Assembly (NCBI GenBank): GCA_903920215.1
Contig: CAIXLG010000129.1
Coordinates: forward strand, 1-44,548
Direction: 5' to 3'
Source: an uncultured Chlorobiaceae bacterium
Lineage (GTDB): Bacteria > Bacteroidota > Chlorobiia > Chlorobiales > Chlorobiaceae
DNA length: 44,548 nt
The notes under the pieces were generated by a model. That model did no database searches. It had not been told where the DNA came from and saw nothing but the letters and a program-made list of their open reading frames with translations. Position numbers and translations under genes: made by a program. This document shows positions 3,712 through 21,142 of the stretch, piece after piece (position 1 is the first letter of the stretch; the number at the start of each line of letters is the position of its first letter).

Positions 3712-6048
3712 ATGAAATCATATAATGGCTCCGCAGATATTGAGCAGAAGAGGGAATCTTTCATTATGCTCAATGCCGGCAACATTGATTGCTCTGTGGC
3801 TGGGGAGGAACTGCACCGGTTGAATCGTGCGCTCCTGGCGACAAATACATGCAATCATGCCCTGATGCATAGCTCAAATGAAATTGAATTGTTGCAGAAG
3901 ATTTGCAGCATAATGGTAGAGGTTGGTGGCTACCGTATGGCATGGGTTGGTTATGCGGAAACTGACGAGGCAAAAAGTGTATCTGTTGTTGCAGAGGCAG
4001 GGTTTATCGCTGATTATAATCAGCATCACCAGCTCTCATGGGCTGATGTTCCACAAGGAAGAGGGCCCGCAGGAATTACAATCCGCACGGGAGAGCCAAG
4101 TATTGTCAATCATATTCCTACTGACCCGCTTTTTAAACGTTGGCGCGAGAATGCAATAAATCATGGGTTTGCATCGCTTCTGACATTGCCGCTTAAAGCT
4201 GAGGCCGGAACCTTTGGGGTTTTGACTATCTATTCACCTAAACCCGATGCGTTCAATGCAATGGAGACCGAATTTCTCGTCTCGCTCACTGATAACCTGG
4301 GATATGGAATCACCATGTTGCGAAGCCGTGAGGCAAAACAGAGGGCTGAGAAGGAGCTGAAACAAAGTGAAGAACGGTTCAGGTCATTGTTTGAGGAGCA
4401 TTCCGCTGTCAAATTACTTATTGATCCTTCTTCCGGCAGCATCGTCGATGCGAATAAGGCTGCCGCAGCCTTTTATGGGTGGTCAGTTGAAGAGCTCCGC
4501 AAGATGCTTATTCAGGACATCAATACATCCTCGCCTGAAGGGGTTAAAGATGAAATGGAAAAAGCCCGGTCGAGAGGGAAAAACAAGTTTTCATTTCAAC
4601 ACCGCAGAGCAAATGGCTCCACCCGAGATGTGGAGGTATTAAGCAGCAAGATTGAGATTGCAGGCAAAGAGCTGCTCTACAGTATTATTCATGACATTAC
4701 TGAACGAAATCGTTATGAACAGCTCAATGCGTTCAGGCTTCGGATACTCCAGTTGGCAGAAACCTCTTCGACAGATGAACTGCTGACGGCAACGCTTGAT
4801 GAAGCGGAAAAATTAACAGGAAGTTCAATCGGTTGTGTGTTTTTTGTAGCAGAAGATCAAAAGAGCCTGATGCTCCAAGCTGTATCAACCAATACATTTG
4901 AACATAAGTGCAAGACTGAAGGAACGGGCCAGCACTATTCGCTGGACAAGACAGGTGTATGGACAGATGCGGTAAGGGAGCGAAAAGCGATTATTCATAA
5001 CGATTATGCCTCTTTGGCAAATCGCAAAGAAATGCCTGATGGTCATGCTGAAATAAGGCGCAAACTGGTTATTCCTGTAACCCGTGATGAAAAAATAGTT
5101 GCAATTATGGGAGTGGGAAACAAGCTCACAGATTATGAGGATAACGATATTGAGCGGGTAGAAACATTAGCCAATCAGGTCTGGGATATCGTTGCCAAAA
5201 AGATCGCTGAGGAAGAAAAGAAAAAACTTGCTGCACACTTACAGCACTCAACAAAAATGGAGGCGATCGGGCAGCTTGCTGCAGGCATTGCTCATGAAAT
5301 AAACAATCCCCTCAATTTTATCACGCTCAATGAATATAACCTCAGTGAAGATTTTAACGATCTTCGTGAAATTCTGAATCATTATCGCCGGATAGTTGCC
5401 CAAGTTGAGGGTATTGCCGCTGTTTCTGAAGAGATAGTGCAACTCCATGAAAAAGAGAACAACCTTGACATTGATGAGTTACTCAAGGAAATTCCGAAAA
5501 CTATTGAAGCATCAAAAAATGGAGTTGAGCGCATCAAAAACATCACCCAAAGTATGCGGAACTTCTCTCACAAAAACACGCAGAATACCTTACGTCCATT
5601 TGATATCAACGAGGCCATCCAGGATAACCTGATCATCACAAAGAATGAGTACCTCCACATTGCTACTATTGAAACAACGCTTGAAAATGTCCCACAAGTA
5701 AACGGCAATATATCGCAGATCAATCAGGTCTTACTGAACCTGATCATTAACAGCATTCATGCTATCAAGGCACAAAACAGAAACTCTCCGGGCAGCATCA
5801 CGATTAAAACATGGGCAACCCGGAAACATGTCTATTGCTCTGTGTCCGATGACGGTGAGGGAGTCCCTGAAGAGATCAAAGAACATATTTTTGAACCCTT
5901 TTTTACAACCAGGGTACCGGGGAAAGGCACCGGGCTCGGGTTAAGTATTTCTTACGACATCATTGTGCACAAACATGACGGGACGCTCTCCTGTGAGTGC
6001 CCGGAGAGGGGTGGAACTGTTTTCACGCTTTCACTGCCGGTAAAATAA
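3712..6048 (+). CDS. Sensor histidine kinase with GAF-PAS-GAF input
   Basis: The protein has 778 residues and no membrane segments, so it should be a cytoplasmic sensor. In order: a GAF domain (about 35-205), a PAS domain (about 220-340, [14 protein letters not shown] onward, ending ITERN), a second GAF domain (about 345-500) and the kinase core. The H-box is [18 protein letters not shown] with His528 as phosphoacceptor. A long helical insert separates it from the ATPase N-box ([10 protein letters not shown], about 676), G1 ([10 protein letters not shown]), F (FEPFFTT) and G2 ([11 protein letters not shown]) boxes. This arrangement is shared with the kinase at 6341-8377, showing paralogy. The ATG at 3712 has no clear ribosome binding site; MLNAGN at 3766 with AGAGGG upstream is an alternative start. 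No output domain is present, so a separate receiver, perhaps one of the two downstream, is probably its target. Confidence 0.88.
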
Positions 6049-6340: not shown

Positions 6341-8377
6341 ATGCAGGAATCCGAAGCAAAAGCTACAGTCCTTGTGGTTGATGACAGTACGACCATACGT
6401 ACCCTCGTTTCCAGTATCGTCAAGAAATCCGGCCATACTACCATGATGGCTGAGGATGGTATCAGCTGCATAGAAATCATAAACTCTCATCAGATAGATC
6501 TTCTGCTTCTCGATGTCCATATGCCGGGAAAAACCGGTCTTGAAGTTCTCTCGTATCTTCGTGATCATCATTTGAATATCCCGGTCATCATGATTTCGGG
6601 TTCGGCTGATATTGAAGAAGCGGTCAAGGCTCTGAAAATGGGAGCTTATGACTTTTTACTAAAACCGGTTAATCCAGACAAGCTTACCGTCACCGTAAAA
6701 AACGCCCTCGCAGAATCAGAACTCCGCAAAAACCTTAAACTATTTTCAGCGGCTATCGCACAAAACCCGCTGTCGATTATCATAACTGACACGCGTGGAG
6801 TTATAACGTATACCAACGAGGCGTTTACCTCTATTTCGGGATATAGCCAACAAGAGGTAATGGGCCGGAATATGAATACGCTGAAATCCGGAAAACACTC
6901 AAAGTCATTTTACAAAGATCTTTGGGAAACAATTACTTCAGGAAAGACCTGGACTGGTGAAATCATAAATAAAAAGAAAAGTGGGGAGCTATTCTTTGAG
7001 CAGGCTACTATCAGCCCAATCACTGGCAACAACTCCAAAATATCTCATTTCATAGGCATCAAGCAGGATATTTCCGAGCAGAAAAAGAAACAAGCTGAAC
7101 TTTCTTTGAGCGAAATGAGGTTTCATGATATGGCTAATCTGCTTCCTCAGACCATTTTTGAAATGAACATTCAAGGCCGGATTATCTATACTAACCGTAT
7201 GGGTTTTGAGACGTTCGGGTATACAAGGGAGGATTTTGAAAACGGTGTGCAGGCCACGATGCTTTTTGCACCGGAAGAGCGAGAGAAAGTGCGGTCAAAT
7301 ATGAAAAACCGCCTGGAGGACGTTCCTTTTGACAATCATGAATATACCGGCAGAAAAAAAGATGGAACCTTGTTCCCGATACTTGTGTATACTTCAAGGA
7401 TTTTCGAAAACGGAACGCTTGTGGGCATCAGAGGAATTGTACTCGACATCAGCGAACGCAAAGAGGCAGAAGACCAGCTCCAGCAACTCAACAGGACACT
7501 GGAGCAAAGGGTTGATGAGCGTACCCTGGATCTTGTAAAAAGCCAGCAACAAGTTATCCAGCAGGAAAAGCTTGCGTCCATCGGTCAACTTGCAGCAGGG
7601 ATTGCACACGAGATCAATAATCCCCTTAATTTTATCAAGATAAATTTTGTAACTCAACAGGGAAACATTGCTGATATTCTCTCTATCCTGAATGAGTATC
7701 GCGCGTTCACAAAACAAATTGACTCCAACACAGTGTATTCCAGTGAGCTGCAGAAGTTACACTCAATAGAGCAGGACCTTGACCTTGATATGCTGCTTGC
7801 TGATATTCCTCAAATCTTTGCCGAATCACAAGGAGGGTTTGAACGAATTACAACCATTATCAACAGCATGCGGAACTTTTCTTACAAGCACGCTCTCGAT
7901 GAGAAGGTTCTTTTCGATATGAACAAAGGAATCCGCGACACGCTTATCATTTCCCGTAATGAATACCGGTATTGTGCGGATATTGAAACCGACCTTAAAG
8001 ATTTACCGCCCGTGCCTTGTAATCCAGAGCAGATGAATCAGGTTTTTCTTAACCTGATCATCAACGGTGCACACGCTATAGCATCACAAAAAAGAGCAGC
8101 GAATGGAAAAATAAAAATTGCGACCTGGATAGACAGCACTTCAGTCTATTGCTCCGTTGCGGATGACGGACCGGGTATTCCGCTTGAAGTTCAAAAACAC
8201 ATTTTCGAGCCTTTTTTTACTACAAAAAAACCTGGAATTGGGACAGGGTTGGGACTCAGCATCTCTTATGACATTGTTGTGCATAAGCATCACGGAACAC
8301 TTACCGTTGATTGTCCTGAAGAGGGGGGAACCGTTTTTACTATTGCGCTTCCCATAAGGATCAATAAAGAACAATAA
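6341..8377 (+). CDS. Hybrid sensor histidine kinase: receiver-PAS-PAS-kinase
   Basis: This 678-residue soluble protein starts with a CheY-like receiver (about 7-122; acidic VDD at 13-14, phosphoacceptor Asp58 in LLDVHMPG, Lys108 in LLKPV). Two PAS domains follow (about 130-250 and 262-378, each with a PAC-type end, the second reading VLDISERKEAE). After a coiled coil (about 378-412) comes the kinase core, with His423 in [11 protein letters not shown] and ATPase boxes NLIINGAHAI, DDGPGIPLEV, FEPFFTT and [11 protein letters not shown]. The N-terminal receiver means the kinase is itself controlled by phosphorylation, possibly by the kinase at 3712-6048. Only two bases separate its stop from the start of the receiver-phosphatase gene, so the two are co-transcribed and probably functionally linked. 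The ATG has no good ribosome binding site. Confidence 0.88.
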   Translation: MQESEAKATVLVVDDSTTIRTLVSSIVKKSGHTTMMAEDGISCIEIINSHQIDLLLLDVHMPGKTGLEVLSYLRDHHLNIPVIMISGSADIEEAVKALKMGAYDFLLKPVNPDKLTVTVKNALAESELRKNLKLFSAAIAQNPLSIIITDTRGVITYTNEAFTSISGYSQQEVMGRNMNTLKSGKHSKSFYKDLWETITSGKTWTGEIINKKKSGELFFEQATISPITGNNSKISHFIGIKQDISEQKKKQAELSLSEMRFHDMANLLPQTIFEMNIQGRIIYTNRMGFETFGYTREDFENGVQATMLFAPEEREKVRSNMKNRLEDVPFDNHEYTGRKKDGTLFPILVYTSRIFENGTLVGIRGIVLDISERKEAEDQLQQLNRTLEQRVDERTLDLVKSQQQVIQQEKLASIGQLAAGIAHEINNPLNFIKINFVTQQGNIADILSILNEYRAFTKQIDSNTVYSSELQKLHSIEQDLDLDMLLADIPQIFAESQGGFERITTIINSMRNFSYKHALDEKVLFDMNKGIRDTLIISRNEYRYCADIETDLKDLPPVPCNPEQMNQVFLNLIINGAHAIASQKRAANGKIKIATWIDSTSVYCSVADDGPGIPLEVQKHIFEPFFTTKKPGIGTGLGLSISYDIVVHKHHGTLTVDCPEEGGTVFTIALPIRINKEQ

Positions 8378-8379: not shown

Positions 8380-10026
8380 ATGGCAAACTATAGTGAGATT
8401 ACTATTCTCTTTGTTGATGATGAATCCTTCATTCTCAGTTCAATAAACAGATTCCTCCGTAAAGAGCCGTATAAGAAACTCTTTGCTAAAAACGGCATAG
8501 AAGCGCTTGAGCTTATCAGACAAAATAATGTCTCCATAGTAGTATCTGATCTTCGAATGCCGGAAATGAACGGCCTGGAGCTGATCAGTGCAGTGAAAAA
8601 GCAAAATCCAGAGATACTTCGTCTTATACTCAGCGGTTCACAGGATATCGACCCTATTATTGAATCGATCAATACCGGTGAAGTCTTCCGCTTTATTCCA
8701 AAACCTGTCGACCCGCCGGCTTTCAAAGAAATTCTGAACGATGCAATTGATTACTATTGTTTGAAAAATGAACGGGAAAAGCTTTTTAATGAACTGTCAA
8801 TAAAAAATGAGGAACTGACCACTGCAAATAATGAGCTCCTTGTTATGTCAAAAAAATTGCAGCGCAGCGAGCAGGAGCTTCGCTCAATGGCTGATGCTGC
8901 ACATGATGCTGTTTTCATGCTGAATAATGCGGGATATATCATCTACCGTAACAGTGCAGCGGAAAATATGTTCGGATTCAGTCGCGAGCAATACGACAAA
9001 CAGAATTTTGTTGACCTTATTTCGCCAGACTCAGCCTCGTTTGATATCCAGGGGATATGCCAGATATCTTCGGGAGATATCCCCGGTATTGATGAGAAAA
9101 TGGTTCACCAGATTGTAGGCATAAGTAAAGACGGCAGTTCCCTCCCCCTTGAGATTTCTAAAGGATGTGTTCTGATTAATGATATACCGCACACTGTTAT
9201 CATAGCCCGGGATATCACGTCAAGGGTTGAAGCTGAAAGGAGCAGGGTGCGCTTTGAAGTCATGCAAAGGGAGTTTGAATCGGAGATTGAAAAAAAAATG
9301 CTTCAAAGCCCGGTACCTGATAGTTTGAAGGGAGTGTCGATTGCCCGGATGATGGTGCCTTCCGGCCATCTTGACGGTGATTTTGCTGATTTTATTATTT
9401 TTGACAGTCATCACGCTGACATCCTTATCGGCGATGTAATGGGACATGGTATTCAGGCCGCCCTGGTTGGTGCCGGTATAAAATCGCTCTTTCTGAAAGT
9501 ACTTGCTCAAACCAAATACCCGCATAGTGCACTTCCCGCACTGGAGGAGATCGTTGCCGGAGTACATGAGCGCTGTATTAATGAACTTATAGGTCTGAGT
9601 ACTTTTGCTACCCTGCTCTTTGTGCGCCTTGACCTTGAGGCCGGACTTATTTCAATTGTCGATTGCGGACATCCGCCGGTCATTCATTTTCATGCCGACA
9701 GAGGAACCTGCTCAATGCTCAAGGGGGAGAACCTGCCTATTGGCTTGATTGAACAACAGGAGTATCATGCAAACTCCTATTCCATACGCGAAAACGATAT
9801 TCTTGTGCTCTTTTCTGATGGAATCACTGAGTGCTCCCGGCCGGACATGACGATGTTCGGCGATCAACAACTTTTAGATATTATTGAAAAGCACCATACA
9901 TTACCATCACAGGAGATAATAGAAAAAATTAAAGAGGCTTTAACTCTCTTCTCAGGAAGAGATACTTATGATGACGATCTCTCCTGTATTGTTATCCGTA
10001 TAGGCTATATCGAAACAAAAGAATAA
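8380..10026 (+). CDS. Response regulator with PAS and PP2C (RsbU/SpoIIE-type) phosphatase output
   Basis: This 548-residue protein has a receiver (about 6-122; Asp57 in VVSDLRMPEMNG, Lys108 in IPKPV), a coiled coil (about 125-168), a PAS domain (about 170-290) and a C-terminal PPM/PP2C phosphatase domain (about 320-540). Metal-binding acidic residues of the RsbU/SpoIIE class are visible: LDGDFADF (Asp334), GDVMGHG (Asp352), FSDGITE and the C-terminal DDDLSCI. Enzymes of this class dephosphorylate phosphoserine or phosphothreonine on STAS-domain antagonists. Two STAS genes and an RsbW-like kinase lie 1.5-4 kb downstream in the same run of genes, making them the obvious partners. The upstream kinase gene ends two bases before this start, so it is the best candidate donor of phosphate to the receiver. 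Confidence 0.9.
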   Translation: MANYSEITILFVDDESFILSSINRFLRKEPYKKLFAKNGIEALELIRQNNVSIVVSDLRMPEMNGLELISAVKKQNPEILRLILSGSQDIDPIIESINTGEVFRFIPKPVDPPAFKEILNDAIDYYCLKNEREKLFNELSIKNEELTTANNELLVMSKKLQRSEQELRSMADAAHDAVFMLNNAGYIIYRNSAAENMFGFSREQYDKQNFVDLISPDSASFDIQGICQISSGDIPGIDEKMVHQIVGISKDGSSLPLEISKGCVLINDIPHTVIIARDITSRVEAERSRVRFEVMQREFESEIEKKMLQSPVPDSLKGVSIARMMVPSGHLDGDFADFIIFDSHHADILIGDVMGHGIQAALVGAGIKSLFLKVLAQTKYPHSALPALEEIVAGVHERCINELIGLSTFATLLFVRLDLEAGLISIVDCGHPPVIHFHADRGTCSMLKGENLPIGLIEQQEYHANSYSIRENDILVLFSDGITECSRPDMTMFGDQQLLDIIEKHHTLPSQEIIEKIKEALTLFSGRDTYDDDLSCIVIRIGYIETKE

Positions 10027-10044
10027 TTCAGGGGGCAGGCCTTT

Positions 10045-10788
10045 ATGAAAGCAGAACTCCTTGGTGTTGCTTTTGAGCAGGCAACAATGTCTACAGCTGT
10101 AGCTCAGATTCTGGATGCTGCAAGGCAAGGTCAGAAAGGAATAATCGTTACTCCCAATGTTGACCATATCGTTATGCTTCAGGATGATTCTGATATGCGG
10201 AGAATCTACGGGGAGGCTCTTTTTCGTTATGCCGATGGCATGCCTATTGTGTGGCTCAGCCGAATCAAGAAGAACCCTCTTCCCGAAAGGGTGGCAGGGT
10301 CTGACCTGCTTATAGCTCTCTGCAGACAAGCTGCCGGAACCGGCCTGAATCTATATTTTCTTGGTGGAAACCCTGGTATTGCAGACAAAGCTGCTGTAGA
10401 ATTGCGTAAACGATTTGCCGGCTTGAACATAGTTGGAACATGGTGTCCTCCTTTCGGCTTCGAACATGATAACGATGAAAACGAACGGATCATAAACGAT
10501 ATAAACTCACGGAGTGTTGATATTCTTTTTATAGGGGTCGGAGCTCCCAAACAGGAAAAATGGGCAGATGCACATATTGATCGTCTGAAGGTAGGTCCTA
10601 TTCTATGCGTTGGTGCCTCGTTTGATTTTGCTGCAGGGACTATTAAACGTGCTCCTTTATGGATTCAGCGTATAGGTTTTGAATGGTTTTGGCGACTGGC
10701 AAGCGAACCCGGGCGGCTCTGGAAGCGCTACCTTGTGCAGGACAGCCGGTTTCTCCCTTTGGCATTAAAAGAGATTTTCAATTCTTAA
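10045..10788 (+). CDS. WecG/TagA/CpsF family glycosyltransferase (GT26)
   Basis: This 247-residue protein matches the WecG/TagA family, which adds the second sugar (often a ManNAc or ManNAcA type residue) to a polyprenyl-pyrophosphate-linked sugar at the inner membrane face. Family signatures are TPNVDHIVM near residue 33, RYADGMPIVW (about 61), the LYFLGGNPGIADKA segment and IGVGAPKQEKW with a following basic C-terminus. An AGGGGG precedes the ATG. It lies 18 bp after the PP2C gene and 30 bp before the initiating sugar-phosphate transferase, the two enzymes expected to make the first lipid-linked disaccharide. The sugar donor cannot be read from sequence. Confidence 0.88.
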   Translation: MKAELLGVAFEQATMSTAVAQILDAARQGQKGIIVTPNVDHIVMLQDDSDMRRIYGEALFRYADGMPIVWLSRIKKNPLPERVAGSDLLIALCRQAAGTGLNLYFLGGNPGIADKAAVELRKRFAGLNIVGTWCPPFGFEHDNDENERIINDINSRSVDILFIGVGAPKQEKWADAHIDRLKVGPILCVGASFDFAAGTIKRAPLWIQRIGFEWFWRLASEPGRLWKRYLVQDSRFLPLALKEIFNS

Positions 10789-10818
10789 GATTCACAAAGA
10801 GCAGTAATAAGGAACACA

Positions 10819-11538
10819 ATGGAACTTGATCCAACGGTGCGAAAAGAGCTGATAAAGACCATAAGCAGCTCAATCAATCCCCGCTTCCGATACCGACGGC
10901 GCCTTAAAGTGAAGGCTTGGGAAACCACAATCATGCTTTCCTACCTTTTGAAAAGAGTGCTTGATTCGGCCGTATCGTTACTTGCCCTCGTTATGCTGCT
11001 TCCTGTTTTTATTTTGACCGCTGTTGCTATCTGGATCGAAAACCCGGGACCCGTGTTTTATGTTCAAATACGTGTCGGACTGAATGGCAAACATTTCAGG
11101 TTTTATAAATTTCGCTCCATGGTGATGAATGCAGACAACATCAAGAAGGAACTTGCTGCATACAATGAGTCGGGAGCAGGAGTGATTTTCAAAATGAAAC
11201 AAGACCCGAGGATTACGAAGGTTGGGAAAATCATTCGCAAGTTCAGTATTGATGAGCTGCCTCAACTTATCAATGTCCTCAAGGGGGATATGAGCCTTGT
11301 AGGACCCAGACCTCCACTACCGGCGGAAGTTGCAGAATATACCCTGGAAGAGCGTAAGCGGTTGCATATTATCCCCGGCATAACATGCCTGTGGCAGGTG
11401 AGCGGCAGAAGCGATATCCCCTTTACCGATCAGGTACGACTCGACATGCAGTATATACAAAGTGCAAGTTTTCTCAATGATGTTATCCTGCTTTTAAAAA
11501 CCATTCCTGCCGTTCTGACCGGCAGAGGAGCTTATTAA
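10819..11538 (+). CDS. Polyprenyl-phosphate sugar-1-phosphate transferase (initiating enzyme)
   Basis: This 239-residue protein belongs to the bacterial sugar transferase (PglC/WcaJ-core) family, which moves a sugar-1-phosphate from a nucleotide sugar to undecaprenyl phosphate and starts repeat-unit synthesis. One hydrophobic helix (about 46-70) anchors it; unlike WcaJ it lacks four additional N-terminal helices, so it is the small monotopic type. Conserved features are FRFYKFRSM, DPRITKVGKIIRKFSIDELPQ (split: the DEL dyad is the catalytic Asp-Glu), NVLKGDMSLVGPRP and GITCLWQVSGRS. AAGGA before the ATG is a good ribosome binding site. Its stop lies 9 bp before a STAS gene. The basic N-terminal 40 residues are unusual and precede an internal Met at 39, which could be an alternative start. 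Confidence 0.9.
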   Translation: MELDPTVRKELIKTISSSINPRFRYRRRLKVKAWETTIMLSYLLKRVLDSAVSLLALVMLLPVFILTAVAIWIENPGPVFYVQIRVGLNGKHFRFYKFRSMVMNADNIKKELAAYNESGAGVIFKMKQDPRITKVGKIIRKFSIDELPQLINVLKGDMSLVGPRPPLPAEVAEYTLEERKRLHIIPGITCLWQVSGRSDIPFTDQVRLDMQYIQSASFLNDVILLLKTIPAVLTGRGAY

Positions 11539-11547
11539 AAGAACACC

Positions 11548-11883
11548 ATGAACTTTCATGTAGACGCGTCAACCGGTAAGACACTTGGCCTTGTTGAATT
11601 AAGCGGAAGGCTGGATGCTGCTAACAGAAGTGAACTTTTAAAATCTTTTGCACTGTGGCAGCAGCAAGTTGACTTGTTTATTTTTAACTGCACCAAGCTT
11701 GACATGATTGACAGCAGTGGACTTGGGGCTATAGTGGCCTGCCTGCGCAAAGCGCTTGAACGAAACGGCGATTTGAAATTGGCAGGTCTGAATCCAAAAG
11801 TTTCTATGGTTTTTGAACTTACAAAGGCTAATAAACTTTTTTCAATTTTTCCTGATACTGGCAGTGCGATACAATCATTCTGA
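11548..11883 (+). CDS. STAS-domain anti-sigma-factor-antagonist-like protein 1
   Basis: This 111-residue protein is a single STAS domain of the SpoIIAA/RsbV type. The signature IDSSGLGAIV places the phosphorylatable serine at Ser56 or Ser57. In known systems the RsbW-type kinase phosphorylates this serine and a PP2C phosphatase removes the phosphate; only the unphosphorylated form binds its partner. It sits directly behind the initiating sugar-phosphate transferase and ahead of the chimera gene. No sigma factor gene is found in the window, so the regulated target is unknown. Confidence 0.9.
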   Translation: MNFHVDASTGKTLGLVELSGRLDAANRSELLKSFALWQQQVDLFIFNCTKLDMIDSSGLGAIVACLRKALERNGDLKLAGLNPKVSMVFELTKANKLFSIFPDTGSAIQSF

Positions 11884-11913
11884 AAAAAGCTGGCTGGAAT
11901 TAAACACTGCTCC

Positions 11914-13311
11914 ATGAAAACGCTCATTATCGTCAAAGAGAAGGATTATGAATGGCTCGGACCTGTTTTTCCCGGGATTCATCCGTTGCTTCTTCCGATA
12001 TGCAATAAGCCTTTTGCAGAGTTTCTGATTGACTTTTCTGTTCTTGCCGGGAGCGAAGCCATCCGGTTTGTCAGCGATGGCCCACTCGGCGATGTGGAAC
12101 AATATTGTGAAAACGGGAACCGTTGGGGTATTGCGATAAGCTATGGAAGTATTCTGGAGAATGACGACCTTCAGATGATTATTGAAAAAAATCAGCGTTA
12201 CTGTGTTGAGGAAAAAGTGCTGATTGTCAGCGGTTATGTTTTTATCCAATACGACAGGCAGCACGATTATAAAACACTTTTGGCATCTTTGCCTGACGGG
12301 GAGTTTCTCAGCTCGAACCATGGAAGCCTCCGCTTAAGAGGAGCTCGGCCTGCTGTGCATGAAACCATAGATAGAGTGCCTTTATCTCTTACAGGGCTTG
12401 ACTCGCTTGATGTGTATTATCGTCTCTCCATGGAAATTCTGAGTTACGCTTCATCTCCATATGTTCTGCCAGGTTACAACAATGAGGAGTATTGCCATAT
12501 CGGCAGAAATGTTGTTATCAGCAAAAGTTCTGAAATAAGAAAGCCGGTTATGATCGGCAATAATGTCCAGATTTTTGAAGGCTCAATCCTGGGACCAGGG
12601 GCTGTTATAGGAAGCAATGTCATTATTGACAGGGAATGCACGGTCACTGACAGTATCGTTCTGGAAAATACTTATATCGGCGAGCATCTCGAGGTTCAAA
12701 ACAGAATTGCTGCAGGTAATATTCTGATTGATCCGGAAAGCGGTATTTCTATTGTGATGGATGACCCTCATCTGTTAGCCGGCATTAAAAAAACAGGATC
12801 GGGGAAAAAGGTGTTTCAGTCATTCGTACACAGCATTGCAGCTTTATTCCTTATCGCCCTGCTGCTTATCCCTTTTCTTCTTCTTTCGCCTATCCTGATC
12901 CTTCAGGGAAAATGGAAACGAAGTAAAAACAGCTATTATACGTCTGGCGCCAGGAAACCCGTAACATTGACAACGACTACCATTGAAAGGAAGGGAATTT
13001 TGAGCACTCTTGCAGGAGCAATATCTCTTGACCGTTTTACTCTGCTTTTCAGTGTTTTTGCCGGCAAGCTAGCGCTTATCGGAAGCTTGCCCGTAGTGGC
13101 AAGACATGCCGGCAGTATGGATCTGAATACAATTGAATCATGGTATCACGCAGGGGTATTCAGTTACGCTGAAGCAGAAGACTGGCCTGTAAACGGAGGC
13201 GATACAGCCATAGTTGAACGATATTTTGCGGTTCATGGCAATCCCTTTCTTGATATCTCCATGACAATAAAGGCATTCTTTAATAGAATTCATGAAACGA
13301 AAACGCTATGA
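11914..13311 (+). CDS. Chimera: nucleotidyltransferase-like, hexapeptide and sugar-phosphate-transferase-like regions
   Basis: This 465-residue protein has an unusual architecture. Residues 1-145 resemble a sugar-1-phosphate nucleotidyltransferase, but the glycine-rich GxGTRL nucleotide loop is absent; only a shadow remains (HPLLLPICNKPFAEFLIDF). Residues about 205-285 form a left-handed beta helix of hexapeptide repeats (IGNNVQIFEGS, IGSNVIID, YIGEHLEV). A hydrophobic helix (about 302-330) follows, and residues 350-460 resemble the last part of a polyprenyl-phosphate sugar transferase (AGKLALIGSLPVV in place of KGDMSLVGPRP, and a WYHAGVFSY segment), again without the catalytic DEL dyad. It may be a membrane-bound scaffold or regulator rather than an enzyme. 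It lies between two STAS genes and overlaps the second by 4 bp, pointing to joint action. Function is unknown. Confidence 0.75.
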   Translation: MKTLIIVKEKDYEWLGPVFPGIHPLLLPICNKPFAEFLIDFSVLAGSEAIRFVSDGPLGDVEQYCENGNRWGIAISYGSILENDDLQMIIEKNQRYCVEEKVLIVSGYVFIQYDRQHDYKTLLASLPDGEFLSSNHGSLRLRGARPAVHETIDRVPLSLTGLDSLDVYYRLSMEILSYASSPYVLPGYNNEEYCHIGRNVVISKSSEIRKPVMIGNNVQIFEGSILGPGAVIGSNVIIDRECTVTDSIVLENTYIGEHLEVQNRIAAGNILIDPESGISIVMDDPHLLAGIKKTGSGKKVFQSFVHSIAALFLIALLLIPFLLLSPILILQGKWKRSKNSYYTSGARKPVTLTTTTIERKGILSTLAGAISLDRFTLLFSVFAGKLALIGSLPVVARHAGSMDLNTIESWYHAGVFSYAEAEDWPVNGGDTAIVERYFAVHGNPFLDISMTIKAFFNRIHETKTL

Positions 13312-13655
13312 TTATCAGTGAAAAAATCTGTAACAGCATTTCTGTCATTACCCTTCAGGGCACCCTTGATGCTTCGACTGCTTCGACACTGAAAACATTT
13401 AAACCTGCATTGGCAGCTTCGAGCCCTATTGTTATTGATTTTTCAAGGGTTGATTTTCTCGATAGCAGTGGTCTTGGTGCACTTGTAGGCATTGCACGGG
13501 AAAAAAGAAGCAAGGGAGGAGAGGTAACATTGGCCTGCTTGAATAACAAAGTCAGGAAAGTATTTGAAATTACTCAGGCATACAAGCTGTTTGATATTTT
13601 TGACGATGTTGAAGCTGCGACTTTACATGCCGAAAAAAAACAGGGGCACCTATGA
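13308..13655 (+). CDS. STAS-domain anti-sigma-factor-antagonist-like protein 2
   Basis: This 115-residue single STAS domain has the signature FLDSSGLGALVG, with Ser53 or Ser54 as the likely phosphorylation site. Its start overlaps the stop of the chimera gene (ATGA), and its own end overlaps the RsbW-like gene by 4 bp, so translation of all three is coupled. It is clearly related to the STAS protein at 11548-11883 but diverged. Two antagonists with one kinase suggests either two targets or different phosphorylation behaviour. Confidence 0.9.
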   Translation: MIISEKICNSISVITLQGTLDASTASTLKTFKPALAASSPIVIDFSRVDFLDSSGLGALVGIAREKRSKGGEVTLACLNNKVRKVFEITQAYKLFDIFDDVEAATLHAEKKQGHL

Positions 13656-14089
13656 ACGCCTTGATCACTCTTCCTGCTGAGATCCGCTTCATCAGGCTTG
13701 CATCGCTCACGGCATTGAAGGTTGCTGAGATATTTTCTGATTCACTCAATACAAAACAGAGTGGTGAAGATTTCTGTCATGCGTTTGAGCTTTCCGTCAG
13801 TGAAGCCTTTACGAATTCAGTTCGTTATGCCGTTCCATCGGGAGTAGATAACATGATCACCCTGAGTTTCAGTTCGGATAACAATAAGCTTACAGTGAGT
13901 ATCAGTGATAGTAACCCTCCTTTTAACCCTGACCCCACACCAGTGGATATATATAAGTACCCTGAAAAAGGATTTGGACTTTTACTGATTCGTCAACTTA
14001 TGGATAGTGTGACCTATACAAGGGATAATGGTACAAATCGGATTTCTTTGACAAAACAGACTGACAGAGCGCTGAACTTGAGCCTATAA
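13652..14089 (+). CDS. RsbW/SpoIIAB-like serine kinase (HATPase_c anti-sigma-type)
   Basis: This 145-residue protein is a stand-alone GHKL ATPase domain of the RsbW/SpoIIAB class. The N-box is ELSVSEAFTNSVRYA (catalytic Glu51 and metal-binding Asn55), followed by ISDSNPPF as a degenerate G1 box and GFGLLLIRQLMD as the G2-like box. In known partner switches such proteins bind either a sigma factor or a STAS antagonist and phosphorylate the latter. AGGGG precedes the ATG, which overlaps the end of the second STAS gene. It starts a switch module enclosed in polysaccharide genes, with a glycosyltransferase beginning 4 bp after its stop. Confidence 0.88.
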   Translation: MNALITLPAEIRFIRLASLTALKVAEIFSDSLNTKQSGEDFCHAFELSVSEAFTNSVRYAVPSGVDNMITLSFSSDNNKLTVSISDSNPPFNPDPTPVDIYKYPEKGFGLLLIRQLMDSVTYTRDNGTNRISLTKQTDRALNLSL

Positions 14090-14093: not shown

Positions 14094-15389
14094 ATGAAAA
14101 ATAAAAAGTTAAAGGTACTCTTAATTATTGAGCAGTGTAATCCTGAATGGGCTTCAGTCCCATTGGTAGGCTATTGTTTCTATGCAAATATCAGCCAACT
14201 CGTTGATACGACTCTTGTCACGCATGAAAGAAACATGCCTGCCCTGGAAAAAGCTCACCCCGACAGAGATATTACCTACATTTCTGAAAGTACTTTTATA
14301 AAGAAATACTATTCTTTTGCTGAAAGGTTAAGCAAGCTGAATGAGAGAGTCATCTGGCCATTATACCATACGCTGACATACCCCGTTTATAGTGAGTTCA
14401 ATCGTCAGGTATACTCCAGGTTTAAGGAATCTATTCTTGAAGGCCATTATGATATTGTTCACGCCATGACACCGATGATGCCCCGCTATCCTGTAAAGGC
14501 AATTAAGGCATGCAAACATACACCATTCATTCTCGGCCCAGTAAATGGCGGTGTTCCTTTTCCAAAAGGTTTTCAAAAAGTGGCCAGACAAGAATTCTCT
14601 GATTTTAACTTTCTTCGATCAATCGGTCGATTCATTATTCCCGGCTATCGGGAAACCTATACAAAAGCTGACTACATTCTTGCCGGCTCTACGTATACCC
14701 TGAATCTGGTTAAAGAGCTCTTCGATATTAAAAATGAGAAGATTGAGTTATTTTACGAGAACGGAATCGGAAGTTCATTTTTGAAGACAGAAGAGAGCGT
14801 TTACGAGAGTACAACAAGGGAGATTAGAGTTACTAACCTTCTCTTTGTCGGGAGGCTGGTACCTTATAAGGGAACAGATATTCTGATTGATGCTATAAGC
14901 AGATTGGAAGCATCCATCAAGAAAAAAATTCTTCTGACGATCGTTGGTGACGGGTCGGAACGAACAACCTTGGAACAACTGGTTGAAAAGCTTAATCTTA
15001 AAGAAATAATTACTTTTACAGGTTGGGTTGATCAGAAGGATACGCTCCAATACTACAGCAATTCCGATATTTTCTGTTTTCCCTCAATTCGTGAGTTTGG
15101 TGGAGCTGTAGTGTTAGAAGCGATGGCCAATGGTCTTCCTTGTATTGTGGTTAATAACGGAGGAATTGGCGAATATGTTACTGAAGAAACCGGCTTTAGG
15201 ATTAATCCAGAGTCCAGGGAGTTTGTTGTTCAGGAATTAACGCTGTGTATAGAGAAATTAGTCATTAATCCATTGCTGCGCCAGACTATGTCAATAAAAG
15301 CTATTCAGCGGGTGAAAGAGTTTTCCTGGAGTGCCAAAGCTGAAGCGATTGTTCGTATTTACAATAAACTTTCAGCACACATGAAGTGA
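14094..15389 (+). CDS. Glycosyltransferase family 4-like
   Basis: This 431-residue protein is a retaining GT-B glycosyltransferase. The N-terminal domain contains HAMTPMMPRYP and the GPVNGGVPFPKGF segment typical of one GT4 subgroup. The C-terminal donor domain has LFVGRLVPYKGTDILIDA (about 252-269) and the EX7E-type motif FPSIREFGGAVVLEAMANG (about 323-341), which holds the nucleotide-sugar. No membrane helix is seen; such enzymes act at the cytoplasmic membrane face on lipid-linked acceptors. It starts 4 bp after the RsbW-like gene, so it shares that transcript. Donor and acceptor cannot be predicted. Confidence 0.88.
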   Translation: MKNKKLKVLLIIEQCNPEWASVPLVGYCFYANISQLVDTTLVTHERNMPALEKAHPDRDITYISESTFIKKYYSFAERLSKLNERVIWPLYHTLTYPVYSEFNRQVYSRFKESILEGHYDIVHAMTPMMPRYPVKAIKACKHTPFILGPVNGGVPFPKGFQKVARQEFSDFNFLRSIGRFIIPGYRETYTKADYILAGSTYTLNLVKELFDIKNEKIELFYENGIGSSFLKTEESVYESTTREIRVTNLLFVGRLVPYKGTDILIDAISRLEASIKKKILLTIVGDGSERTTLEQLVEKLNLKEIITFTGWVDQKDTLQYYSNSDIFCFPSIREFGGAVVLEAMANGLPCIVVNNGGIGEYVTEETGFRINPESREFVVQELTLCIEKLVINPLLRQTMSIKAIQRVKEFSWSAKAEAIVRIYNKLSAHMK

Positions 15390-15455
15390 ATCTGTTCAGG
15401 CTCAAATTGCCTGTCACATGGTCAGCAAACCCAAATTAACGTCCTAGGGAACCTT

Positions 15456-16430
15456 ATGATATCTGTTGTCATTGTAAGCTACAACACACGTGACATTCTT
15501 CGCAACTGTCTTCAGGCTTTGTTTGAATACAGTGGTGGAGTTGAAATGGAGGTTTTTGTCGTAGACAACAATTCCCATGATGGCTCTGCTGATATGGTAA
15601 AAAACGACTTCCCTTCCGTTCTTCTGATTGCAAACAATCAGAATCTCGGGTTTGCCGCAGCAAACAATCAAGCTTTTCCTCTTGCCAAAGGGAACTATAT
15701 CATCCTCCTAAATCCAGACGCCTATATCAGGCCGTTAGCTATTCAGAACAGCGTCAAATTCATGGACGTGACACCGAAATGCGGGCTTTGCGGAGGAAAA
15801 ATCATCTCCCCGGCAGGCCTGCTTGAACCCTCAGCACGGCGCTTTCCGTCAGCTCTCTCAAAATTCATCACTCTGTCAGGATTACGTGGAAAATATGCGA
15901 AGTCTCCAATTTTCAATTACCATGAATTTGGCGGTTTTGCTCATGACAAACCTCTTGAGGTTGACTGGGTACCAGGAACATTCTCCATTGTTCGCAAAAA
16001 GATGCTTGATGAAATAGGTCCTTTCGATGAAAGGTTTTATATCTATTACGAAGAGACCGATCTCTGTATGAGAGCCAAAAAAGCTGGCTGGACAATCTAT
16101 TTTATCCCTGATGCAGAAGTCACGCACATCGGTGGCGCCAGCAGCAAAACAAGAAAAGATAAATCGTTTGAAGAGAAAGCTTCTCAAGTGCTTATCTTCA
16201 GAATGCAAAGCGAATGGCTTTATTACCGTAAAAACAAGGGGGTTGCCGGGCTCCTTTCCAGTGCTGGAGTTGAATTGCTCTGGTATGCAGCCCGATTCAC
16301 AAAAAACCTTCTCTTCCCATTTGGTGATGCTGAAAATAAACGTTCGGCAGCAGTTTTTATCATCAAACAAATAATTTCATCACTTCAGGATACTAAATTC
16401 GGTAGCTTCTCACCCCCAATCCCCTGGTAA
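15456..16430 (+). CDS. Glycosyltransferase family 2, rhamnosyltransferase-like
   Basis: This 324-residue GT-A enzyme has the family 2 start SVVIVSYNTRDILRNCL, the donor-binding VVDNNSHDGSADMV, LGFAAANNQA and the LNPDAYI metal site, then the base-containing YYEETDLCMRAKKAGW. This variant is common among WbbL-type rhamnosyltransferases, so rhamnose is a reasonable but unproven donor. A GGGAACC precedes the ATG. It follows a 66-bp gap, the longest between genes in this part of the operon, and is six bases from the acetyltransferase gene downstream. Confidence 0.88.
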   Translation: MISVVIVSYNTRDILRNCLQALFEYSGGVEMEVFVVDNNSHDGSADMVKNDFPSVLLIANNQNLGFAAANNQAFPLAKGNYIILLNPDAYIRPLAIQNSVKFMDVTPKCGLCGGKIISPAGLLEPSARRFPSALSKFITLSGLRGKYAKSPIFNYHEFGGFAHDKPLEVDWVPGTFSIVRKKMLDEIGPFDERFYIYYEETDLCMRAKKAGWTIYFIPDAEVTHIGGASSKTRKDKSFEEKASQVLIFRMQSEWLYYRKNKGVAGLLSSAGVELLWYAARFTKNLLFPFGDAENKRSAAVFIIKQIISSLQDTKFGSFSPPIPW

Positions 16431-16436
16431 AGCATC

Positions 16437-16949
16437 ATGAATCTGTTCCAAAACTTACGAGCTGATCTAGCTACCTATGAAGGCAAATGGGGCAGCCAAG
16501 GATTCTGGGTCATGATTGTCTATCGTTTCGGAAGATGGCGCTATACTATTAGAAGTGGAATAGTTCGTAAACCATTTTCCCTGCTCTACAAACTACTTTA
16601 CAAGATTGTTCAGATACTTACAGGTATCGAACTTCCTTGTGAAGTTCCTGTAGGAAAGAACTTCCGCATCGACCATTTCGGGGATATCATCATCAGCGGA
16701 TATGCTAGTTTTGGAGACAACTGCATTATTCGTAACGGCGTCACCGTAGGATTGAAAAATATTTCTGAAAAAGCCGCGCCTTGTTTCGGGAACGATATAA
16801 GCATTGGAGCTGGAGCAAAAATCCTTGGAAATATCACTATCGGCAATAATGTTGATATCGGAGCAAATGCTGTAGTCCTGAAGCCAGTACCCGATAACTC
16901 CATCGCTGTTGGGATTCCGGCTAAAATCATTACAAAAAGATCTGCTTAA
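16437..16949 (+). CDS. Hexapeptide acetyltransferase, serine acetyltransferase-like
   Basis: This 170-residue protein has an N-terminal helical part (about 1-65) and a left-handed beta helix (about 70-165) with CysE-type repeats: FRIDHFGDIIISGYASFGDNC (histidine in the active-site position), IGAGAKILGNITIG, IGANAVVLKPVPDNSIAVGIPAK. The C-terminus ends at the point typical of short CysE/WcaB-type enzymes of polysaccharide loci. It probably O- or N-acetylates a sugar rather than making O-acetylserine, judging from its neighbours. A second related gene lies at 23483-23971. Confidence 0.85.
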   Translation: MNLFQNLRADLATYEGKWGSQGFWVMIVYRFGRWRYTIRSGIVRKPFSLLYKLLYKIVQILTGIELPCEVPVGKNFRIDHFGDIIISGYASFGDNCIIRNGVTVGLKNISEKAAPCFGNDISIGAGAKILGNITIGNNVDIGANAVVLKPVPDNSIAVGIPAKIITKRSA

Positions 16950-16966
16950 TCAACGTACCGGATACC

Positions 16967-18184
16967 ATGTACAAATTTACTGAATACATTACCTATAATC
17001 CGATGTTTCACTATGACCGGGTGGTTAAAACCATGGCAATTTACTTCTTTGTCTCTTTTTTTGTTTTCCTGACAGCTTGCAGCAGCATTTCTCCCAAGCC
17101 GTCACGAACCACCACAGCTCCAGAAAAAGATTTCAAAGCAGAACTCCCAAAAAAAACGCAGGAATTTGCAACTCCTGAAAAAATTGAGGCAGTCTCTCCG
17201 CATGAAGTGTATCAATACCGCCTTGGACCAGGAGATTTGGTCAACATTCTGGTATGGCACAGGCCTGAACTTTCACAGGAAAACATCGTAGTCTCCCCCG
17301 ATGGATTCATTACCGTTCCGAGAGTCGGAAGCCTCAACGTTATAAACCGTACACCCGACGAAGTGCAGAATATGATCACCTTAAAACTGGAAAGCCTCTA
17401 TATAAAACCTGAAGTAACAGTAAGAGTAAATGAGTTTCATAACAACAAAGCATTTGTTCTCGGTCGAGTTAGCAAACCGGGGGTTATCAATTTTCCCGGA
17501 AAAGGCACCCTTCTGGAAGCACTTGCTCTGGCAGGAGGCCTTCCAACAGATCAAGCTAAAGAGAACGCGCTAACAAAATGCGCCATTATCCGAGGCAATG
17601 ACACTGTTATATGGATCGACCTTCAAGATCTTCTTAAAAATGGAAATATGGCTTTGAACTCCCCGATCAGAAACAATGATGTCATCTATATTCCTGAAGC
17701 TACTGATGAACTGGTTTATGTAATGGGTGAAGTCGTGACACCTGGTGTCATTCAGATTCGAGGTGGAATGAATGTGCTTAAAGCAATAATGCTTGCTGGA
17801 GGAATGAACAAACAGGCTAATGCGGAAAAGGTATTCGTGATAAGACAACAAAATCTCAAAGGTGATGTTATCAAGGTCGATCTGAAAAACCTGCTTGAAC
17901 ACGGTGATTTCAGCCAGAACTTTGCACTTATGTCGAACGATATTGTCTTTATCAGCCCAAGTGGTATGGCAAAATTCAACTATGCGCTTGAAAAGCTGCT
18001 CCCATCTCTCAATGTACTTAGCATCGGCACCACCACTGCGGAATCATTTGGTATAATGGCCAAGTTACGAAGCCAACTCTGGGGTCAATCAGGATTTGTG
18101 AACACCAATACAGGAGTAACTATATCTACTGGAACAACTACCACCACGGGTACAAGTACATCGACAGGAACGACTGGACAGTAA
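16967..18184 (+). CDS. Wza-type outer-membrane polysaccharide export lipoprotein
   Basis: This 405-residue protein has a hydrophobic signal ending in the lipobox LTAC, so it should be lipid-anchored at the outer membrane. The poly-export domain (YRLGPGDLVNILVWHRPELS, about 84-160) is followed by two SLBB domains (VLGRVSKPGVINFPGKGTL, about 165, and VMGEVVTPGVIQIRGGMNV, about 252). Such proteins form the octameric channel for polysaccharide exit. The C-terminal 30 residues are almost only Thr, Gly and Ser. The ATG at 16967 gives an unusually long n-region of 22 residues before MAIYFFVSFFVFL; an ATG at 17033 would give a conventional signal peptide and may be the real start. Confidence 0.9.
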   Translation: MYKFTEYITYNPMFHYDRVVKTMAIYFFVSFFVFLTACSSISPKPSRTTTAPEKDFKAELPKKTQEFATPEKIEAVSPHEVYQYRLGPGDLVNILVWHRPELSQENIVVSPDGFITVPRVGSLNVINRTPDEVQNMITLKLESLYIKPEVTVRVNEFHNNKAFVLGRVSKPGVINFPGKGTLLEALALAGGLPTDQAKENALTKCAIIRGNDTVIWIDLQDLLKNGNMALNSPIRNNDVIYIPEATDELVYVMGEVVTPGVIQIRGGMNVLKAIMLAGGMNKQANAEKVFVIRQQNLKGDVIKVDLKNLLEHGDFSQNFALMSNDIVFISPSGMAKFNYALEKLLPSLNVLSIGTTTAESFGIMAKLRSQLWGQSGFVNTNTGVTISTGTTTTTGTSTSTGTTGQ

Positions 18185-18233
18185 TATCGATTTGAAGTTA
18201 TATTCAAAAAAATATGAAACCAATAAACTGACA

Positions 18234-19994
18234 ATGAAACTCATTCAACCCCCTACTAACATTAGTAAAATCTGGTCTCTCCTGTTGCCAAAAGAACGTC
18301 ATAATTCTATTATTCTGTTCATTTTAATGCTTATCGGCGTTGGGCTGGAAACGCTTGGAGTCGGGCTTGTTATTCCTGCGCTGTCTCTTTTTACACAAAA
18401 AAATTTTACCGCAAAATATCCAGCTCTTCTACCTTTACTCAATTTTTTTGGTAATCCAGACCAACACAGCTTGGTCGTTGGAGGTTTACTGCTGCTGCTC
18501 GGTGTCTATGTTATAAAAGCTGTTTATTTGGTATTTCTTACCTGGAATCAAAATCGCTTTACGTTCGACATTGGAGCAAGGCTTTCATTGCGACTGTTTA
18601 CTATTTACCTACGTCAACCATATGCGTTTCACCTACAACGTAACTCGGCACAGTTAATCCGAAATGTTACCAATGAAGTATCAATTTTCACCAGTAGCGT
18701 GTTATCGCCACTTATGCAGTTGTTTTCTGAGTCATTGATTGTTGTTGGCCTTTGCCTTATGCTGCTTGTTGTGGAACCTATTGGAACAATCTCCATTGTA
18801 TGCGTGCTTGGCCTTACTGGCTGGAGTTTCTTCCGTTTTACAGAAGGGAGTATAACGCGCTGGGGTAAAGCACGTCAGCATCACGAAGGGTTACGTCTTC
18901 AGCATTTACAGCAAGGCCTTGGCGGCGCGAAAGATGTTAAACTTCTTGGAAGGGAGAGTGATTTCTTAAAACAATACAGTATCCATAATAGAGAAAGTGC
19001 CAAGGTTAGTCGATTAAACGCTACCATGCAGCAGCTTCCTCGGCTTTGGCTTGAGTTGCTTGCTGTTTGCGGTCTTGTAGCTCTGGTGCTTGTTATGCTT
19101 GCACAGGGAGGGGCGCTCGAAACCATCATCCCAAAAATTGGCCTTTTTGCTGTTGTAACTTTTCGCTTGATGCCCTCAGTAAACCGCTTGTTGAATGTAA
19201 TGCAATCGCTTAAGTACTGTTTGCCTGTTATTGATATACTTCAAAAGGATCTGATCCTTTCTGCTCAAGATAATCCTGAAATTAAATCAACACAATCATC
19301 TTTCCAGAAATCCCTTGAGTTACAGAACATTACCTATACTTATCCTGGATCTGCCTTACCATCACTTAATGATATCTCACTTACCATAAAATGCGGTGAA
19401 TCAGTGGGGTTTATTGGTACCAGTGGCGCAGGTAAAAGTACTCTGGTTGATATACTGCTAGGCCTGTTACCTCCAGATCAGGGAATTGTAAAAGTAGACG
19501 GTGAAAACATTAAGCAAAATTTACGAGGGTGGCAGAATCAAATCGGGTATGTACCTCAATCAATTTATCTAACCGATGATACATTGCTTCGAAATATAGC
19601 CTTTGGACTTTCCAGTGAAAAAATTAATAAAGAAGCTGTTTTGAATGCAATTCGTGCAGCACATCTGGATGATTTTATTCAAAGTCTACCAGAAGGCATT
19701 GATACTGTTGTAGGAGAAAGAGGTGTTCGTCTTTCAGGCGGTCAACGTCAAAGAATCGGCATTGCACGCGCTCTCTACCACGATCCTTCAGTACTTGTGC
19801 TTGACGAAGCAACCAGCGCACTTGATTCAGCTACAGAACAAGGCGTTATGGACGCTGTTCGCGAATTGCAGGGCTCTAAAACCATTATTATTGTTGCTCA
19901 CCGTCTCAGCACTATCGAACAATGTGACCGACTATATCAGCTTGAAAATGGTCAAATAAAATCACAAGGCTCGCCCAATAAGATTCTTTATTAA
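18234..19994 (+). CDS. ABC transporter, PglK-type lipid-linked oligosaccharide flippase
   Basis: This is a half-transporter of 586 residues with fused membrane (about 1-320) and ATPase (about 355-580) domains. Its start (SLLLPKERHNSIILFI) followed by LETLGVGLVIPALSLF is characteristic of the PglK group, which flips polyprenyl-pyrophosphate-linked oligosaccharides. The ATPase has Walker A GTSGAGKST, signature LSGGQRQRIGIA, Walker B VLVLDEATSALD and the switch histidine in VAHRLS. I chose the ATG at 18234; a TTG at 18192 would add 14 residues, but neither has a clear ribosome binding site. As no Wzx flippase is visible, this is probably the repeat-unit flippase of the locus. Confidence 0.87.
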   Translation: MKLIQPPTNISKIWSLLLPKERHNSIILFILMLIGVGLETLGVGLVIPALSLFTQKNFTAKYPALLPLLNFFGNPDQHSLVVGGLLLLLGVYVIKAVYLVFLTWNQNRFTFDIGARLSLRLFTIYLRQPYAFHLQRNSAQLIRNVTNEVSIFTSSVLSPLMQLFSESLIVVGLCLMLLVVEPIGTISIVCVLGLTGWSFFRFTEGSITRWGKARQHHEGLRLQHLQQGLGGAKDVKLLGRESDFLKQYSIHNRESAKVSRLNATMQQLPRLWLELLAVCGLVALVLVMLAQGGALETIIPKIGLFAVVTFRLMPSVNRLLNVMQSLKYCLPVIDILQKDLILSAQDNPEIKSTQSSFQKSLELQNITYTYPGSALPSLNDISLTIKCGESVGFIGTSGAGKSTLVDILLGLLPPDQGIVKVDGENIKQNLRGWQNQIGYVPQSIYLTDDTLLRNIAFGLSSEKINKEAVLNAIRAAHLDDFIQSLPEGIDTVVGERGVRLSGGQRQRIGIARALYHDPSVLVLDEATSALDSATEQGVMDAVRELQGSKTIIIVAHRLSTIEQCDRLYQLENGQIKSQGSPNKILY

Positions 19995-20005
19995 GAAAAC
20001 ACACT

Positions 20006-21061: not shown

Positions 21062-21142
21062 TTTTTTTATATATAGATTAAATAAAATATTTCAGACACT
21101 AATATAATTGCATCATGACTTTTTTTAAGATCAAGAACATTT

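Follow-up and report, generated by a model that had tools for sequence, protein, structure and literature searches.

The output of the partner switch encoded in this Chlorobiaceae polysaccharide locus is probably the initiating phosphoglycosyl transferase (PGT) complex, reached through a pseudoenzyme scaffold, instead of a sigma factor or transcription (an estimated probability of about 0.62). Switches of the RsbUVW type normally free sigma factors. A factor of the SigB/SigF type is absent from this genome, and the switch lies within a polysaccharide cluster, which together indicate that polysaccharide synthesis is most likely switched directly.

The partner-switching locus and its genome

All coordinates are positions in the window, that is, the whole 44,548-nt stretch of DNA analysed (CAIXLG010000129.1, uncultured Chlorobiaceae bacterium), where the following features were recognised:

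3712..6048, + strand, HK1, a GAF-PAS-GAF histidine kinase, likely the upstream sensor (Pfam; synteny in several relatives)
6341..8377, + strand, HK2, a receiver-PAS-PAS histidine kinase (Pfam; upstream of the PP2C gene in many relatives)
8380..10026, + strand, receiver-PAS-PP2C (SpoIIE/RsbU-like) phosphatase (Pfam SpoIIE, E 1.6e-42)
10045..10788, + strand, WecG/TagA-type glycosyltransferase, a pathway gene (Pfam Glyco_tran_WecG, 2.8e-62)
10819..11538, + strand, initiating PGT (Pfam Bac_transf, E 1.5e-66; SIDELPQ dyad intact)
11548..11883, + strand, STAS1, with an IDSSGLG phosphosite (Pfam STAS, 5.5e-16)
11914..13311, + strand, chimera, a degenerate fusion of nucleotidyltransferase, hexapeptide and sugar transferase
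13308..13655, + strand, STAS2, with an LDSSGLG phosphosite, RsbV-like partner of the kinase (Pfam STAS, 2.5e-20)
13652..14089, + strand, RsbW-like serine kinase (Pfam HATPase_c_2, 2e-21)
14094..35924, + strand, remaining polysaccharide cluster

A preliminary description, made from the sequence alone, had placed a complete partner-switching module without a sigma factor at 8380-14089, and its seven open reading frames are present there in the order that it gave, all on the + strand and each with Pfam support, as is the phosphorylatable DSSGLG motif in both STAS proteins. The system begins upstream of that span, with HK1 and HK2; 2 bp separate the HK2 gene from that of the phosphatase, and HK2 is the likely donor for the phosphatase receiver. 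The genes of the chimera and STAS2, as well as those of STAS2 and the kinase, overlap by four bases. The serine sites of the STAS proteins are kept in nearly all aligned relatives, the N-box of the kinase is conserved in them and its ATP-binding boxes appear intact, and the stand-alone PGT, with both the catalytic Asp-Glu dyad and the Bac_transf domain, is predicted to be active. Downstream, the cluster encodes an EpsH-like GT4, a GT2, hexapeptide proteins, a Wza-type export protein, an ABC transporter, a Wzc-like chain-length protein, further glycosyltransferases, an acyltransferase and a probable Wzy-like polymerase.

An inventory of the whole genome (99.7% complete) found a single PP2C protein of the SpoIIE type, which is the phosphatase of this locus, and no free DSSGLG STAS proteins other than STAS1 and STAS2, so that one SpoIIE and two free STAS proteins make up a closed system. 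The search for sigma factors was extended from the module, which encodes none, to the genome, where RpoD (or an RpoD-like protein) and three ECF factors were detected and no SigB/SigF-type factor was found, either in the operon or elsewhere. Among high-quality genomes, the number of sigma factors shows no difference according to presence or absence of the module (3.8 with it versus 3.5 without, p 0.29).

The order PGT-STAS1-chimera-STAS2-kinase is fixed in 24 loci of the same genus, with STAS2 missing in one, and this recurrence indicates that the arrangement is not due to chance and bears out the expectation that gene order would be conserved in relatives. The receiver-PP2C gene lies upstream of the block in nearly all same-genus loci with enough DNA, and the PGT of the relatives (72-96% identity) always adjoins STAS1. 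STAS1 was found in none of 36 same-genus genomes without the chimera, and a kinase orthologue occurs in 15 of 15 genomes with the chimera and in one of 22 without it, bearing in mind that genes of one operon co-occur regardless of contact between their products. One genome of the genus (G021) contains an orphan trio of PP2C, STAS2 and kinase, lacking the chimera and distant from polysaccharide genes, which implies that the trio can work apart from such a locus. As for the module membership proposed at the outset, it holds for PGT, STAS1, chimera, STAS2 and kinase; the WecG-type enzyme falls outside the conserved unit, since about half of the relatives have only a distant member of the family or none.

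The chimera and its intact relatives

The chimera is composed of a nucleotidyltransferase part (about residues 1-178), a hexapeptide beta-helix (about 194-280), a membrane helix (296-330) and a sugar-transferase part that extends to residue 465. Used alone as a query outside the genus, it retrieved only hexapeptide or nucleotidyltransferase fragments, with the exception of one member of the phylum, which led to a family of nucleotidyltransferase-hexapeptide-PGT fusions. The profile of this family matches the chimera over all three parts (hhalign 99.8%, E 4.4e-28). Inclusion of the fusion sequences raised the pLDDT of the structure model from 56 to 73, and the model predicts a retained nucleotidyltransferase fold and a membrane helix. 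The fold matches listed for it are nucleotidyltransferases only, which leaves the profile comparison as the basis for identifying the C-terminal part. In all 17 chimeras the PGT dyad is changed from DE to DR (ER in one), reading SLDRF or similar, and the GxGxR signature loop of the nucleotidyltransferase is replaced. Intact fusions keep both motifs, and the dyad of the stand-alone PGT is intact in 24 of 25 cases. Judged by these motifs, the chimera is catalytically dead at both ends, and we propose that it acts as a pseudoenzyme scaffold, while it could have another function, for example through its well conserved hexapeptide domain.

The intact fusions belong to other classes of the phylum, and a STAS gene lies just 5′ of the fusion gene in all 19 loci with readable upstream DNA, which come from five families and are related loci, not 19 independent events. 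A PP2C gene is present in 18 of them, and the remaining locus starts at a contig end. A contig scan with a two-sequence fusion alignment gave two true fusions among 80, and the plain nucleotidyltransferase matches that made up the rest served as controls; across the 1.08 Mb of DNA from 90 control loci with a nucleotidyltransferase gene, no STAS gene was found. A GT2 gene also precedes the STAS gene in fusion loci, and the kinase shows a very weak HATPase match in several of them, with none recognised nearby in some. STAS1, STAS2 and the fusion-linked STAS proteins form three separate clades in the tree, and neither HMM scores nor the tree revealed an orthologous correspondence of STAS1 or STAS2 to the fusion-linked proteins. 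The wider proposition that a partner switch directly gates the initiating PGT, by way of the dead fusion in the genus and of the active fusion enzyme itself in other classes, stands at roughly even odds.

Alternative outputs and known systems

The three ECF factors and several GGDEF proteins encoded in the genome are possible distant targets of the switch. RsbW-like kinases classically bind sigma factors, and the kinase might serve one of the ECFs, or RpoD, as an anti-sigma factor, with the polysaccharide cluster merely part of the regulon. This is quite unlikely, however, since the classical targets of RsbW/SpoIIAB are of the SigB/SigF type missing here, the number of sigma factors is not tied to the module, one of the ECF genes is adjoined by a gene for a small membrane protein that resembles a cognate anti-sigma factor though without a family match, and the linkage of STAS genes to fusions in other classes would be left unexplained. 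A diguanylate cyclase elsewhere in the genome, whose c-di-GMP would then raise polysaccharide output, is slightly easier to defend as the STAS target, given the precedents of HsbA-HsbD, BgrV-BgrR and SiaC-SiaD (PMC8457831), but still unlikely: all the GGDEF matches are on other contigs, with none among the scanned proteins of the window, and neither the chimera nor the STAS-fusion linkage would be accounted for.

Another member of the cluster (the Wzc-like protein, the export protein, the GT2 or the polymerase) could also be the target, the adjacency to PGT and chimera being mere operon order. GT2, hexapeptide and Wza genes do follow the block in most relatives, and the GT2 upstream of STAS in fusion loci points the same way. 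The only pathway members tied to STAS genes within the genus as well as in the other classes, however, are a PGT or fusion-type protein and, less tightly, a GT2, and Wza and Wzc are several genes away at varying distances, which makes such a target improbable. Least probable of all would be a chimera that is a working enzyme, such as a hexapeptide acyltransferase, untouched by the STAS proteins; the conservation of its hexapeptide domain would fit, but its other two domains have been retained despite the loss of catalytic motifs in 17 of 17, its gene lies between two STAS genes and overlaps that of STAS2, and STAS1 was not found without it.

With the RsbU-RsbV-RsbW and SpoIIAA-SpoIIAB systems of Bacillus, the present module shares a PP2C phosphatase, a STAS protein with a phosphorylatable serine and a HATPase-type serine kinase encoded by adjacent genes; it differs in the missing SigB/SigF, the two STAS proteins, the receiver input and the location among polysaccharide enzymes and a PGT pseudoenzyme. 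The parallel drawn initially with the Vibrio syp locus holds loosely: in V. fischeri SypA is likewise a STAS protein of a polysaccharide locus under kinase and phosphatase control, whereas SypE unites both activities in a single protein, which here correspond to a receiver-PAS-SpoIIE protein without HATPase and a separately encoded kinase, together with two STAS proteins. In addition, the target of SypA was still called unknown in 2023 (PMC10120452), while the fixed neighbour seen here suggests one. The SiaABC-SiaD, HsbA-HsbD and BgrV-BgrR systems also act on an enzyme and not on a sigma factor, and SiaD is activated by unphosphorylated SiaC, but their target is a diguanylate cyclase (PMC8457831); SiaC, moreover, is a DUF1987 protein and not a classical STAS as the effectors here, and its locus, unlike this one, co-encodes the cyclase. 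In Myxococcus, the phosphorylation-controlled single-domain protein EpsW has been proposed to bind EpsZ, the initiating PGT, and to activate it (PMC12802240), although EpsW is a response regulator and not a STAS protein, and no PP2C/RsbW switch, fusion or pseudoenzyme is involved. The HmpU-HmpV-HmpW switch of Nostoc is tied to polysaccharide and motility, and the available portion of its report gives the target of HmpV as unknown and mentions no linkage to a PGT or fusion (PMC8256260). The literature searched yielded no precedent for a partner switch acting on a PGT, and nothing on a fusion of monotopic PGT and nucleotidyltransferase or on Chlorobium anti-sigma factors.

Proposed mechanism and implications

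In the pathway proposed for the PGT complex as output, HK1 and HK2 would set the receiver state of the PP2C phosphatase, which, judging from the conserved motifs, would oppose the RsbW-like kinase at the serine that STAS2 and STAS1 each carry. One of the two, most likely STAS1, would in its unphosphorylated form dock on a membrane complex of chimera and PGT and permit chain initiation, and its phosphorylation would release it. The chimera would thus offer a docking platform, and the separate active PGT would carry out the chemistry. The direction, with the unphosphorylated form as the on state, is suggested by analogy with SypA and SiaC. The comparative data strongly favour the initial idea that an enzyme may be under direct control of the STAS proteins, and from these data we infer the contact.

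STAS proteins of polysaccharide loci such as SypA and HmpV have been studied for years and, to our knowledge, have no known target. Undecaprenyl phosphate is a scarce shared carrier, which the initiating PGT commits to one polysaccharide. Comparative genomics now offers the initiating enzyme as a specific candidate target for a STAS switch. If this is true, partner switching would control polysaccharide output post-translationally, at the committed step, and would include a class that does without a sigma factor and acts on a defined enzyme; this may also hint at the targets of SypA and HmpV. The conserved pairs of STAS and fusion genes would then encode small complexes for structural work and reconstitution, and a signalling switch would have stayed tied to its enzyme after the fused form turned into a pseudoenzyme.

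The gene block and its polysaccharide setting

The seven-gene module at 8380-14089 has the coordinates and order given in the preliminary description, with each domain backed by Pfam/NCBIfam and the expected motifs found in the kinase, STAS1, STAS2 and the phosphatase. Two histidine kinase genes precede it:

3712-6048, histidine kinase HK1, 5′ of the phosphatase gene
6341-8377, histidine kinase HK2, which stops 2 bp short of the phosphatase gene
8380-10026 (+), receiver-PAS-SpoIIE phosphatase (PP2C)
10045-10788 (+), WecG-type enzyme
10819-11538 (+), initiating phosphoglycosyl transferase (PGT)
11548-11883 (+), STAS1
11914-13311 (+), chimera
13308-13655 (+), STAS2
13652-14089 (+), RsbW-like kinase

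Because chimera/STAS2 and STAS2/kinase overlap by 4 bases and the remaining gaps within the block measure only 9 to 30 bases, its genes are probably co-translated as a single unit. The genes 3′ of the block encode glycosyltransferases, Wza-type export and Wzc-like proteins, an ABC transporter and what is probably a polymerase; together they make this a cluster for polysaccharide synthesis and export. Arrays of 7-base tandem repeats (AGTGCTG, AGTTGGC, TGCCTAC and AGTGGGC) occupy 3173-3393, in the gap before HK1, and 6086-6117, in the HK1-HK2 gap; these repeats precede the sensor genes and may be prone to slippage. A two-module nonribosomal peptide synthetase of 1995 aa (36029-42016, minus strand; adenylation, carrier, condensation and thioesterase domains) directly adjoins the cluster.

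A degenerate chimera and its intact relatives

Pfam recognises only hexapeptide repeats in the chimera. In a distant member of the phylum (G081), one locus (L069, on the same contig as L086) carries a STAS gene followed by those for a 518-aa fusion of nucleotidyltransferase, hexapeptide and complete sugar-transferase domains, a PP2C and a receiver-HATPase protein. The family of such fusions, gathered by searching with one of them the class to which G320 and G646 (locus L085, titled Ignavibacteriales) belong, consists mostly of proteins of 570-608 aa with NTP_transferase, hexapeptide and Bac_transf domains, and profile-profile comparison aligns it with chimera residues 25 to 402 (probability 99.8%, E 4.4e-28). 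Modelled with AlphaFold (mean pLDDT 73), the chimera has a nucleotidyltransferase fold that matches RmlA and tlr0611, a reduced C-terminal domain and a 35-residue helix at 296-330, which on this model is probably membrane-inserted.

The PGT dyad DE is catalytic in PglC/WbaP. All 17 chimeras have lost the GxGxR loop and changed the dyad to DR or ER, whereas both motifs are retained in the 11 aligned fusions, and 24 of 25 stand-alone PGTs from the chimera clusters still have the dyad. Since the chimera has lost both motifs and the PGT retains its own, the chimera is, judging by its residues, a double pseudoenzyme retained beside an active PGT.

Among 20 fusion loci, a stand-alone STAS gene lies just 5′ of the fusion in all 19 with readable upstream DNA: the two genes are 2-213 bp apart or separated by a single weakly HATPase-like gene. 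The same STAS HMM finds a STAS gene in none of the 90 control loci, which surround other nucleotidyltransferases and total 1.08 Mb. The STAS phosphosite is conserved as DSS or DST, and 18/19 loci have a PP2C nearby, those scanned bearing receiver domains; the exception starts at a contig end. As five families are represented (f5, f10, f33, f39 and f59), these loci are related yet not a single clone. In one sub-group, the upstream genes include those for an NtrC-type regulator and a receiver protein, and the fusion neighbourhood yielded no recognisable HATPase. In one family (L210:4631-6405), GT2-STAS-fusion-PP2C is preceded by a receiver protein and a sigma-54 activator of the NtrC type, an arrangement that recalls SypG of the syp locus. 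The protein between STAS and fusion (L201:7436-8008, L085:3448-4002 and equivalents) matches HATPase_c_2 very weakly (E about 0.002), has a long insertion and is perhaps a kinase-like adaptor.

Conservation within the genus

A full-length chimera is present in 25 of 61 same-genus genomes (one split, one with an in-frame stop) and, across the 101 genomes searched, was not seen outside this genus. The conserved order sought in relatives was recovered: PGT-STAS1-chimera-STAS2-kinase is contiguous and unchanged in 24 loci, the one departure being G039, with no STAS2 between chimera and kinase. A receiver-PP2C lies upstream in nearly all relatives' loci having enough DNA, and WecG is absent or represented by a distant member (34-38%) in about half. 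SpoIIE proteins occur in 25/25 chimera genomes but in 13/36 chimera-less ones of the genus, kinase orthologues (E below 1e-30) in 15/15 against 1/22, and STAS1 orthologues in none of the 36 without chimera. The single exception, G021, with neither chimera nor STAS1, carries an orphan PP2C-STAS2-kinase (RsbW) trio away from polysaccharide genes (L165:9200-11751). This orphan, together with the lack of STAS1 wherever the chimera is missing, indicates that the STAS2-kinase-phosphatase trio can stand on its own and that STAS1, chimera and PGT form one set.

A second PP2C-STAS2-RsbW trio lies beside the cluster in G026 and G039, and a second kinase on another contig in G010. In the G060 chimera (L064:9998-11332), a TGA interrupts the reading frame after codon 13, while the near-identical G025 copy is open; the G060 gene may be a pseudogene or start later. 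In G033 (L048:10001-11739), chimera and STAS2 are 69-71% identical to those of the window, and STAS1, PGT, kinase and EpsH 86-93%; from these identities, the chimera-STAS2 pair looks to have been exchanged together.

Sigma factors and the target of the switch

The genome that carries the block is 3.04 Mb in size and 99.7% complete. It encodes a single SpoIIE-type phosphatase, that of the polysaccharide cluster, and four proteins matching HATPase_c_2, of which the block's kinase scores best. Of its five STAS matches, two are STAS1 and STAS2, one is a SulP transporter and two are longer proteins that lack DSSGLG; the last two (L073:8112-8726 and L074:3137-3994, contigs C29 and C67) have long acidic tails ending in basic, AT-hook-like KKRGRPKK/KKRGKSK stretches. 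Sigma-70 region 2 is matched by four proteins, three ECF and one RpoD-like (275 bits for NCBIfam RpoD, whereas SigBFG reaches just 108, below its cut-off of 234), and sigma number in high-quality same-genus genomes does not differ with the chimera (3.8 with, 3.5 without; p 0.29). As the sigma factors are RpoD-like or ECF and their count is unlinked to the chimera, the sigma-70 region 2 and NCBIfam searches of the own genome reveal no dedicated SigB/F-type target.

The proposal of a switch without a sigma factor, whose STAS proteins may control an enzyme or assembly complex directly, thus holds in part: the lack of a SigB/F-type target and the conserved order favour it, and direct control of an enzyme is read from gene linkage. 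From the strictness of that linkage we infer sigma-free partner switching with an enzyme or pseudoenzyme target, although linkage alone would fit either contact or co-regulation. Less probably, the output could run through c-di-GMP, GGDEF proteins being encoded elsewhere in the genome.

A literature search, largely outside subscription journals, found no paper tying STAS or partner switching to a PGT or a nucleotidyltransferase-PGT fusion. For EpsW-EpsZ, a 2025 paper proposed that a small phosphorylation-controlled protein acts on an initiating PGT (PMC12802240). SypA is active when unphosphorylated (PMC10120452), and unphosphorylated SiaC activates SiaD (PMC8457831); by analogy with these two, the unphosphorylated STAS would be the permissive form. 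In the case of an enzyme or pseudoenzyme target, the sensor kinases would set the state of the phosphatase receiver, and the phosphatase and RsbW-like kinase that of STAS2 and STAS1. Finally, unphosphorylated STAS1, the candidate effector, would dock on the chimera-PGT assembly, permitting initiation.
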